A stretch of 43,394 nucleotides of DNA from Beijerinckiaceae bacterium (GTDB lineage Bacteria; Pseudomonadota; Alphaproteobacteria; Rhizobiales; Beijerinckiaceae): assembly GCA_022702015.1 (NCBI GenBank), contig JAKONI010000220.1, positions 1 through 43,394 on the forward strand, in the 5' to 3' direction. The notes beneath the pieces are model-generated. The model was not told the DNA's origin. It saw only the letters and a list, made by a program, of their open reading frames with translations, and made no database searches. Below are positions 8,462-11,848 of the stretch, piece by piece; the stretch's first letter is position 1, and each line of letters starts with the position of its first letter. The position numbers and the translations under genes are program-made.

Positions 8462-9310
8462 ATGCGCCCTGTCCCCCTCCTGTCCGTTCTCATCATGGCC
8501 CTGGCGGCGACGGCGGCCGACGCCCAGCCGGCCCAGCCCGATCCCGGGCGGCCGGCGCCGCGCCGTCCGGTCCATCGGGCCCAAAGTCCCGCCCAGCCCA
8601 TCACCGTCTACGATGCCCGGATCGAGGCGGGCGACCTTCGCCTGTCGGGGTCGATCCGTAAGCCCGGCGCCATCGTGGAGATGGATGGCGACGTCTCGAT
8701 CCAGGCGGACAGCCGTGGCCGCTTCCTGTTCAAGCTGCCCTATCGGTCGTCCACCTGCGTCGTGACCCTCAAGAGCGGCGAGGACGAGCGCGAGGCGACC
8801 ATCGCCAACTGCGCGCCGGAGGGCCCCCCCGGCCCGCCCGGTCCGCAGGGAGCCCCCGGTCCGGCGGGCGAGAGGGGACCTGCGGGCGAGGCCGGTCTCA
8901 AGGGCGAGGCGGGGCCCAAGGGCGAGGCTGGGCCCAAGGGCGAGGCCGGTCTCAAGGGCGATACGGGTCCCAAGGGCGAGCAGGGCCAGCCCGGTGCGAA
9001 GGGCGAGGCAGGATTGCCGGGTCCCCGGGGCGAGCAGGGCGCGAAGGGCGACGCGGGGGCTCCCGGTCCCAGGGGCGAGCCCGGTCAAAGGGGTGAGCCG
9101 GGTCCCGCCGGCCAGCCCGGCGCGGCGACGGTGGCTCTCAGGCGCCTGCGCAAGACCGATTGCGCGGGGGCCTGCGCCGTGACCTGCGAGGGCGAGGAGG
9201 CGATGGTGGCCGCCCGCTGCCTCGGCGCCGGCACCCCGGCCTACGAGGGCGAGGGCGCTTCCTGTCCCTCCGAGGCCACGGGGATCGTGGGCTTCTGCGC
9301 CAAGCCGTAA
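8462..9310 (+). CDS. Exported collagen-like protein
   Basis: A 282-residue exported protein. Residues 1-21 form a signal peptide (hydrophobic [10 protein letters not shown] core, likely cleavage after A-D-A). A Pro-rich linker leads to a small beta-rich domain (about 48-117) with Cys99 and Cys117, reminiscent of carboxypeptidase-regulatory-like folds. Residues 121-222 are 34 uninterrupted Gly-X-Y triplets, Pro-rich at both ends with repeated G-P-K-G-E-A in the middle, where the DNA shows ~18-bp tandem units. Lys-Gly-Glu/Asp motifs of this kind stabilise bacterial triple helices that lack hydroxyproline. The C-terminal domain has six cysteines (234, 238, 242, 253, 268, 279) and could act as a trimerisation head. 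Function is unknown; surface filament or adhesin is inference. The next gene is convergent. Confidence 0.85.
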
Positions 9311-9320
9311 ATCCGGGTTT

Positions 9321-9414
9321 CCAAAGGGCCGGGCCCTTTGGCGGGTGCAGGGCGGCGCCCTGCGCCTGTCGGGGTCTTACCCCGACACCCCATCGAAGGG
9401 CGTGACGCCCTTCG
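9321..9414. repeat. Four-hairpin dispersed element, copy A
   Basis: Four perfect hairpins stand in a row: 9321-9341 (10-bp stem, 1-nt centre), 9347-9363 (7-bp stem, loop GGC), 9367-9387 (9-bp stem, loop CTT) and 9394-9414 (9-bp stem, loop TGA). A second copy with the same order and spacing but partly different stem bases is at 13511-13603. It lies between convergent genes and can serve as a two-way terminator. Hairpins 3 and 4 reach into the coding end of the flavoprotein gene. Confidence 0.8.
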
Positions 9415-10630
9415 AGATCCCCCGGCTTTCCAGCCACGCGAGCATCCCCCCGGCGGCGGCCCGGCCGCCGGCGATGGCCCCCTGAAGCAGGTAGCCCCCC
9501 GTGGGCGCCTCCCAATCCAGCATCTCGCCCGCCACGAACAGGCCGGGCCGGTCCCGCAGCATGGCCTGCCCATCGAGGGAGGACAGGGTGACGCCGCCCG
9601 CCGTGGAGATCGCCCGGTCGAGCCCCATCGTGCCCGTGAGGGTGAGGGGCGTCGCCTTGATGAGGCCGGCCAGGATGGCGGGCTCCGTCGGCAGGGCCGT
9701 GCCCGCCGCCTCGCGCAGCAGCCCGACCGCCACCGGGGCGAGGCCCGCCGCCTTGCGCAGGCGCGCGGAGAGGGAATCCCCCGGCCGGCTCCGGCCGAGG
9801 CGTGCCGCCAGGGAGGAGGCGTCGAGGTCCGGGCGCAAGTCGAGGATCAGCCGGGCGGAGCCTTCGCGGGCGACGGCCTCCCGCAACAGCCGTGACAGGG
9901 CGTAGACGGCGCCGCCCTCAAGGCCCTGCCGCGTCACCACCGCCTCGCCGCGCACCGTCCGGCCGGCGAAGGTCAGCGCCACCCGCTTGAGCGGGGTGCC
10001 GGCATGGCGCTCGCGGAACGTCTCCGACCAATCGAGGGCGAATCCCGCATTGGCGGGGCGCAGGGGCGTCACCCCGACGCCGAGCCCTTCGAGCAGCGGA
10101 ACCCAGGCCCCATCGGAGCCGAGGCGCGGCCAGCTCGCCCCGCCGAGCGCCAGCAGCGTCGCGCCCGCCCGGACGGTGCGCGTCCCCTCGGGCGCCTCGA
10201 AGGTGAGGGTCCCGTCCCCGAGCGCGATGAGGCGGTGGCGCGGGCGGATCGCGACGCCGCGCTCCGTGAGGCGGGCGAGCCACGCGCGCAACAGGGGGGA
10301 CGCCTTGAAGCTCTCCGGGAAGACCCGGCCGCTCGATCCCACGAAGGTCGGCTCGCCGAGCCCCTCGCACCACGCGCGCAGGGCCTCCGGCGGAAAGGCC
10401 CCCACGGCGGCGTCGAGGCTGCCGGCGGGGTGATAGCGGGCGAGGAAGTCCGGGAGGGCCTCGCTATGCGTGAGGTTCAGGCCGCCGCGCCCGGCCATGA
10501 GCAGCTTGCGCCCGAGCGAGGGCATCCGGTCGTAGACCGTCACGGCCCGGCCGGCATCGGCCAGCACCTCGGCCGCCGCGAGCCCGGCCGGCCCGCCCCC
10601 CACCACCGCGATCTCGTGTCCCTCAGCCAT
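9377..10630 (-). CDS. BaiN/HI0933-type NAD(P)/FAD-dependent oxidoreductase
   Basis: Flavoprotein of the COG2081 (YhiN/BaiN) group, closest in feel to the TIGR03862 subfamily; the reaction is not established. The 417 residues begin with a Rossmann FAD motif (G11-G-G-P-A-G16) and the family signature G-R-K-L-L-M-A-G-R-G-G-L-N-L-T (40-54). The C-terminal third has T-A-G-G-V and the FAD-binding G-L-F-V-A-G-E-M-L-D-W-E, then P-T-G-G-Y-L-L-Q-G-A. I use the ATG at 10630, which starts right before the FAD motif; an earlier in-frame start at 10804 adds 58 residues with no similarity. The last ~12 residues (K-G-V-T-P-F-D-G-V-S-G) are encoded inside the four-hairpin repeat, and the stop codon falls at the hairpin 3 loop. 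Confidence 0.88.
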   Translation of the reverse strand: MAEGHEIAVVGGGPAGLAAAEVLADAGRAVTVYDRMPSLGRKLLMAGRGGLNLTHSEALPDFLARYHPAGSLDAAVGAFPPEALRAWCEGLGEPTFVGSSGRVFPESFKASPLLRAWLARLTERGVAIRPRHRLIALGDGTLTFEAPEGTRTVRAGATLLALGGASWPRLGSDGAWVPLLEGLGVGVTPLRPANAGFALDWSETFRERHAGTPLKRVALTFAGRTVRGEAVVTRQGLEGGAVYALSRLLREAVAREGSARLILDLRPDLDASSLAARLGRSRPGDSLSARLRKAAGLAPVAVGLLREAAGTALPTEPAILAGLIKATPLTLTGTMGLDRAISTAGGVTLSSLDGQAMLRDRPGLFVAGEMLDWEAPTGGYLLQGAIAGGRAAAGGMLAWLESRGISKGVTPFDGVSG

Positions 10631-10816
10631 GCCACCGAAGGGCGTGCCGGGCTGGCCTGTGTCAAGCGGGGGTATCGGCCGCCCGCCCTTGATTCGCCGC
10701 CTTCCGCCGCTTACGTCGCGCCTATCGACTGCGGGCCCCTCTGGCGTGCGCTCCTTGAAGCGCGCGTGATGTCGGAGTCGATGCTTTCCTTCCGGAAGGA
10801 TCAACAGGTCCCGCTC

Positions 10817-11848
10817 ATGGTCGATTTTCTATTCGTCGAATGGCTCGGCAAGCCCGTCTGGATGTGGCTGGGCTTCCACGTGCTCATCGCCGCCCTTCTG
10901 GCCTTCGATCTCGGACTGTTGCACCGGGACAAGGAGCATGAGATCGGCGTGCGGGAGAGCCTCCTGCTCACGGCCTTCTACTTCACCCTCGGCATCGCCT
11001 TCGGGGGGTTCATCTGGTGGGAGTTCGGCTGGAACGCCGGGGAGGAGTACGTCACCGGGCTCGTGGTCGAGAAGTCGCTGTCGATGGACAACGTCTTCGT
11101 CATCGCGATGATCCTGACGGGGCTCGGCATCCCCCGCGCCGCGCAGCACCGGGTGCTCCTGTGGGGTATTCTGGCGGCGGTGGTTCTGCGGGGCCTGATG
11201 ATCGGCCTCGGGGCCGCGCTGGTGCATCAGGTCCACTGGATCCTGTCGCTGTTCGCCGCCTTCCTCATCTATGCCGGCCTGAAGATCCTGTTCTCGGGCG
11301 AGGAGCAGCCGGGGAATTTCGGCGAGAGCCGGATAGTCCGCTGGTTCAAGCGCCGCTTCCGGGTGACGCCGGAACTGCACGGGCAGCGCTTCGCCGTGCG
11401 CAAGGCCGATCCCCGCACCGGCCGGAAGGCCCTGTGGTTCACGCCGCTGGCCCTGGCCCTGGTGCTGGTGAACGGCGCCGACGTGATCTTCGCCGTCGAC
11501 AGCGTGCCGGCGATCTTCGCCATCACCACCGACACCTTCATCGTCTACACCTCGAACATCTTCGCGATCCTCGGGCTGCGCGCGCTCTACTTCGCCCTCG
11601 CGGCAATGGTCGATCGCTTCGCCTACCTGAAGACGGCGCTGGCCTTCATCCTGATCTTCATCGGCGCGAAGATCGTGGTGGCGGACACGCTGGGATGGAT
11701 CGACGTGCCGGCCTGGGTGTCCCTGGTGGTCACGCTGGTGCTGCTCGGCGGCGGCGTCGCCTACAGCCTGTGGCGCACCCGGGGCGCGGCCGCGGCGGAG
11801 CCGGACCACGCCCGCGCCGAGCATGAAGCCCGGATCCACCGGGCCTGA
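10817..11848 (+). CDS. TerC family integral membrane protein
   Basis: Predicted multi-pass inner-membrane protein of the TerC/Alx family, whose members are linked to tellurite resistance and to manganese or other metal export during secretion. The 343 residues contain several hydrophobic helices with the hallmark acidic segments E-K-S-L-S-M-D91-N-V-F near 85-94 and A-D-V-I-F-A-V-D-S-V-P-A in the second half. A charged cytoplasmic loop lies between them. The C-terminus ends in a Glu/His/Arg-rich tail. I take the ATG at 10817; in-frame ATGs about 40-50 nt upstream are possible. I looked for a yybP-ykoY manganese riboswitch upstream and did not see one. TerB-domain proteins are encoded 0.8 kb and 8 kb further on. 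Confidence 0.9.
   Translation: MVDFLFVEWLGKPVWMWLGFHVLIAALLAFDLGLLHRDKEHEIGVRESLLLTAFYFTLGIAFGGFIWWEFGWNAGEEYVTGLVVEKSLSMDNVFVIAMILTGLGIPRAAQHRVLLWGILAAVVLRGLMIGLGAALVHQVHWILSLFAAFLIYAGLKILFSGEEQPGNFGESRIVRWFKRRFRVTPELHGQRFAVRKADPRTGRKALWFTPLALALVLVNGADVIFAVDSVPAIFAITTDTFIVYTSNIFAILGLRALYFALAAMVDRFAYLKTALAFILIFIGAKIVVADTLGWIDVPAWVSLVVTLVLLGGGVAYSLWRTRGAAAAEPDHARAEHEARIHRA

Follow-up and report, generated by a model that had tools for sequence, protein, structure and literature searches.

A multi-copy hairpin repeat, probably inserted between convergent genes, encodes the C-terminus of a Methylobacterium-type flavoprotein

Repeat-encoded C-termini and repeat-supplied stop codons are already known in other bacteria, and the flavoprotein case reported here is a well-documented addition to them. 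In enterobacteria, RU-1/ERIC fusions have been described at gene 3' ends, for example in the ECA3499 amidase (Delihas 2007, PMC2759123). The GTAG- and CGTC-tagged REPs are mostly intergenic and are found past the 3' ends of genes, also where two genes converge; some of them supply the stop of a flanking ORF (GTAG REPs give TAG stops), and among intragenic REP copies slightly more than 10% are at ORF ends (PMC3733652). Rickettsia palindromic elements (RPEs), which are palindromic repeats of ~105–146 bp, are read in frame in conserved alphaproteobacterial proteins (PMC2229807).

The locus compared with these systems lies in a window of 43,394 nucleotides (the whole stretch of DNA analysed, G000:C227) from a Methylobacterium-type draft genome of 422 contigs and 85% completeness; the best named relative is Methylobacterium sp. 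J-067. Here a four-hairpin repeat sits between a convergent collagen-like gene and a flavoprotein gene of the TIGR03862/HI0933 family (Table 1). In translation the flavoprotein ORF ends ...GMLAWL-ESR-GISKGVTPFDGVSG-TAA: its frame enters the element from the hairpin 4 side, gives G-I-S-K-G-V-T-P-F-D-G-V-S-G and then meets a TAA that occupies three positions of the 5-nt hairpin 3 loop. An earlier sequence-only reading of this DNA had placed the stop at that loop, and both the placement and its coordinates were borne out; its estimate of ~12 repeat codons was too low, because the element's terminal box GATCCCC (from position 9416) is also translated, as G-I, which brings the repeat's share to 14.

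Table 1 Coordinates of the flavoprotein gene, the repeat element and the convergent gene in the window.
Feature	Positions	Strand	Description and basis
Flavoprotein gene	9377..10630	-	417 codons, ATG at 10630; TIGR03862 / HI0933-like (aminoacetone-oxidase-type FAD enzyme)
Flavoprotein stop codon TAA	9377..9379	-	In 5-nt loop of hairpin 3; read from sequence
Element-encoded C-terminal tail GISKGVTPFDGVSG, 14 codons	9380..9421	-	Translation; missing in genus orthologues; low pLDDT
Four-hairpin repeat element, ~110 bp	9314..9423	.	Own-genome copies, 28-copy alignment, fold; ends +/- a few bases
Hairpin 1, CCAAAGGGCCGGGCCCTTTGG	9321..9341	.	Fold on both strands
Hairpin 2, GCAGGGCGGCGCCCTGC	9347..9363	.	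Fold on both strands, covariation
Hairpin 3, GTCGGGG-TCTTA-CCCCGAC	9368..9386	.	Arms 9368-9374 and 9380-9386; loop contains flavoprotein stop; fold, covariation
Hairpin 4, TCGAAGGGCG-TGA-CGCCCTTCGA	9393..9415	.	All within flavoprotein coding sequence; fold on both strands
Convergent collagen-like gene	8462..9310	+	PF01391; stop TAA 9308-9310, a few bases short of element
Probable displaced old flavoprotein 3' end	9241..9310	-	Antisense to collagen-like gene; cut off by element; homologous to orthologue ends in L132, L133

RU-1/ERIC fusions resemble this arrangement: there too the usual stop is lost to a small hairpin repeat at the gene's 3' end, which encodes a C-terminal extension past the conserved domain and supplies the new stop. 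The marks of Delihas-type fusions are found at the flavoprotein locus: a multi-copy repeat that occurs independently of the gene, a reading frame and stop codon within the repeat, and repeat-less orthologues that lack the tail. The repeat sequence and the host are unrelated in the two cases, and the Methylobacterium case differs further in presenting an empty site and a probable displaced old end, with a tail that replaces a longer, overlapping one. Unlike the GTAG and CGTC REPs, the Methylobacterium consensus does not start with either tag, its unit of ~110 bp comprises four hairpins, and the Y1/RAYT transposase (PF01797) typical of GTAG REPs was found in none of five genomes (controls gave hits in 5 of 14, and the source genome is only 85% complete). 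A RAYT transposase as the mover of the element was rejected on this result. Compared by description, RPEs are reported as in-frame insertions within numerous protein genes, whereas the Methylobacterium copies lie at or after stops and affect only C-termini.

Set beside other TIGR03862/HI0933-like flavoproteins (solved homologues 2i0z and 3v76), the protein differs only in its last 16 residues. It matches TIGR03862 with an E value of 8.4e-146 (485.6 bits vs a curated cut-off of 242.65) over model positions 2–376 of 376, so that the model is exhausted at residue 401 of 417; PF03486 and PF22780 also match. The predicted structure (mean pLDDT 91) has its last helix at residues 378–402, while residues 410–417 fall below a pLDDT of 50. 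Because the family model ends at 401 and the last helix at 402, the repeat-encoded tail is an appendage after the fold, and its end is predicted to be disordered and to lie beyond the conserved fold. The tailed flavoprotein is presumably made and working, and the tail is most likely selectively neutral.

The element belongs to an abundant family. A 121-bp stretch matched its own genome 45 times, counting the query locus and some matches that overlap. The lower bound on copy number there is 43 distinct copies, spread over 39 loci, and the element is present in 79 of 111 genus genomes. The hairpin motifs occur once in the window vs 0–0.03 expected, and the element is far beyond chance. The same four hairpins fold from both strands (z = -5.3), and among 28 aligned copies both sides of the stem have changed in 9 of the 27 consensus pairs. 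The 28-copy consensus starts with GGGGTTCC and finishes with GGGATCCCC; its ends are inverted versions of GGGGATYCCNAAGG..., so that terminal inverted repeats of MITE type are present, and the consensus fold even pairs the arms of hairpin 1 with those of hairpin 4. The motif (G)ATCC flanks the element on both sides and is found at the empty site, yet GATCC also occurs within the element's own ends; with a terminal box (GGGATCC) so similar to the target (GATCC), neither the exact ends nor a target-site duplication can be assigned at single-base resolution. The element matches no Rfam family at gathering score, a 'distant' mode search of a plasmid collection gave no match, and a promoter and terminator scan around the element found nothing. 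The open literature, as searched, gave no description of this Methylobacterium repeat, and the family is probably undescribed.

Two observations concern individual copies. In six of them (L002, L162, L168, L169, L171 and L177) TCATGG stands directly at the element start, at the hairpin 1 end; read leftwards, this may be an ATG start that abuts the element, or it may be part of a longer element end. A 5-kb contig of the source genome (L172, contig C268) carries at least two element copies, one of which holds an inserted GC-rich hairpin followed by TTT, resembling an intrinsic terminator.

Flavoprotein C-termini could be read in 108 other genus genomes (109 were fetched, one of them cut by a contig end), and none of these 108 has the element at this place or the tail. 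In 106 of the 108 the protein ends 26–35 residues past the motif TGGYLL, usually with ...WLRETGG or similar; the corresponding count is 41 in the window and 48–49 in two sister genomes. One genus locus (L041) has one long element match, which lies more than 1 kb beyond the flavoprotein end. Another orthologue (L155, genome G007, C2:961912-963084) has an internal TGA or frame disruption and may be a pseudogene or contain a sequencing error. A convergent gene for a collagen-like or secreted protein with a similar 3' end adjoins the flavoprotein gene in many Methylobacterium genomes.

The two sisters, G116 (80% DNA identity) and G079, which is the J-067 sequence (79%), are the nearest relatives of the window and form one clade with it (support 100/99). 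In both, the flavoprotein runs past its usual end, to ...WLGSDQGFVQNPTMPVASGGQDAPSAS and ...WLADQGLAQKPTRPVASAGQDAPSPS respectively before the stop, and this extension is the antisense of the collagen-like gene, giving a tail-to-tail overlap of 70 bp. The alignment of the window with the sisters' DNA (MAFFT) has a single clean gap at the element between conserved flanks, where small junction indels remain possible given that these relatives are only ~80% identical. Removing 106 bp from the window in silico restores the sisters' ending in frame; since the frame is restored only by removals whose length is 1 modulo 3, this is supporting and not decisive, and the case rests mainly on the homology of the flanking DNA. 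The C-terminus of the collagen-like protein is unchanged (GIVGFCAKP), and the same kind of C-terminus is found in G116 and J-067. This protein, as read in the window, is secreted, with Gly-X-Y repeats and a cysteine-containing C-terminal part. The repeat-less orthologues thus lack the tail, as the sequence-only reading implied they should, and two sister genomes preserve the empty site.

Taken together, flank homology, the clean gap and the conserved end of the collagen-like gene make insertion the most likely history, in which the older flavoprotein end was cut off without being deleted. Our data suggest, with a probability of roughly 0.9, that a MITE/REP-like element inserted at the convergent junction on this lineage and swapped the flavoprotein's tail for a repeat-encoded one. 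In an ancestor shared with the two closest relatives, the flavoprotein would first have lost its usual stop and extended over ~70 bp antisense to the collagen-like gene. Later, on the window's own lineage, a non-autonomous, MITE/REP-like four-hairpin repeat would have inserted between the two convergent genes, landing a few bases past the collagen-like stop, so that the collagen-like protein was spared and the flavoprotein frame was cut. Translation would then have passed through hairpin 4 and one arm of hairpin 3 before ending in the hairpin 3 loop, exchanging a dispensable tail (~20 residues past the usual end) for one of 14 residues. The insertion was presumably tolerated because the flavoprotein end is dispensable and the tail follows the last helix. 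The sequence-only reading, that the element had inserted into or replaced the original 3' end, is supported as regards insertion; replacement seems not to hold, since the old end is still present beyond the element. The locus offers an unusually complete record of a mobile hairpin repeat altering a protein end, comprising a filled site, two empty sister sites and a readable old end, together with the same tail on an unrelated protein of another species.

We surveyed the ends of genes facing element copies with a simple codon model trained on the source genome, taking the strongest matches and not a random sample. Among the 114 gene ends that face a copy, stops inside the element number 11 and most others fall just before it, which provides a frequency estimate for repeat-made protein ends in a similarity-selected sample. 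For the own-genome copies there were 42 facing genes, with 36 stops between 15 nt before and 8 nt into the element, two further upstream and four inside; for 60 copies in other genomes the same interval held 43 of 72 stops, and seven were inside. Three candidates for stops inside the element (L018, L167 and L171) proved to be artefacts caused by truncated copies and were left out. Repeats do shape protein ends, as had been proposed from the flavoprotein, but this is a minority outcome (4 of 42 facing genes in the own genome stop deeper inside).

Conserved families that stop inside the element include the flavoprotein, CitG, SURF1, an AraC-type regulator (L278) and an acyltransferase (L194). 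Element tails are shorter in CitG (L019, ...PDPGFPKG), SURF1 (L162, ...RGRGSPRD) and also the AraC-type protein. Since about 71–74% of the frames through the 28 copies have no stop at all, a gene that enters the element usually gains a tail. The flavoprotein has its closest parallel in G070, where a threonine-aldolase-type lyase of family PF01212 (L280 / L311) has the end ...EGTSPFGGVSGRSP... in the element frame used by the flavoprotein tail (EGTSPFGGVSG in the lyase vs KGVTPFDGVSG in the window). It translates nearly the whole element, to ...ADAFARTRDSEGTSPFGGVSGRSPDGHFQGSALDPRKG and stop, and so bears out the expectation that the same tail might be found on unrelated proteins, here in another species. 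Its orthologue in G011 (L269 / L312) has the element at the same site and stops in the first hairpin loop (...ARNPGSRRD), with an element-derived tail of ~5 residues vs ~30 in G070. The 28 other lyase orthologues inspected have no element and no such tail; they end at various nearby points, mostly within a few residues.

The clustering of stops between 15 nt ahead of the element and 8 nt inside it (36/42 in the own genome, 43/72 in others), the stable structure on both strands and its covariation would all suit a role for hairpins lying within ~15 nt of stop codons on either side, for which the element is kept at gene ends and of which the flavoprotein tail is a by-product. Such hairpins might delay ribosomes at termination, keep convergent transcripts apart or shield the ends of mRNAs, and work cited in PMC12306157 reports ribosome stalling at E. 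coli REPs that lie within less than 16 nt of a stop. We regard this as possible, if on the unlikely side: no T-run terminator is present, and the stem covariation may reflect requirements of mobility and not a role in RNA. In many repeat-less orthologues the spacer between the two convergent stops measures just a few bases or a few tens of them, and such naturally short spacers mean that the element's closeness to stops needs no selection. The family nevertheless offers a system for studying the behaviour of ribosomes and transcripts at structured stop codons.

It is doubtful, and less probable again, that the Methylobacterium element acts as a ready-made gene-end module, its insertion repeatedly resolving tail-to-tail overlaps. 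If so, a nearly stop-free element would settle at convergent stops and separate overlapping or stop-less genes, and unrelated proteins would receive the same kind of short tail, GIxKGxxPFxGVSG.

For the flavoprotein locus itself, the element might have been present before the three genomes diverged and been lost precisely from G116 and J-067, so that the tail would be old. Branching inside the trio is not firm, since support for G116 and J-067 as a sister pair is only 91/52, which leaves some room for such a history. It is nonetheless very improbable: the outgroups all lack the element here, loss would need to leave behind a clean junction and recover a 70-bp overlap that is homologous in both genomes, and insertion takes one event where loss takes at least two. 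Insertion rather than loss appears to explain the pattern.

A function for the new tail in the flavoprotein (stability, localisation or a degradation tag) is a little less probable still. The open frame and the survival of the tail are consistent with it, but tails vary freely among orthologues, this one is predicted to be disordered and to follow the conserved fold, and the lyase orthologues of G070 and G011, with the element at a single shared site, have element-derived tails that are very unlike each other.

An assembly artefact at the repeat, conceivable in a draft of 422 contigs, is hardly credible here, as the same convergent neighbours are found in the sister genomes and in other Methylobacterium, a synteny across the repeat which indicates that the contig was not misjoined through it. 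Elsewhere in the window, positions 10723–10784 on the plus strand match the Rfam terC RNA (RF03067, 55.8 bits), upstream of a gene for a TerC-looking membrane protein that starts near 10818.
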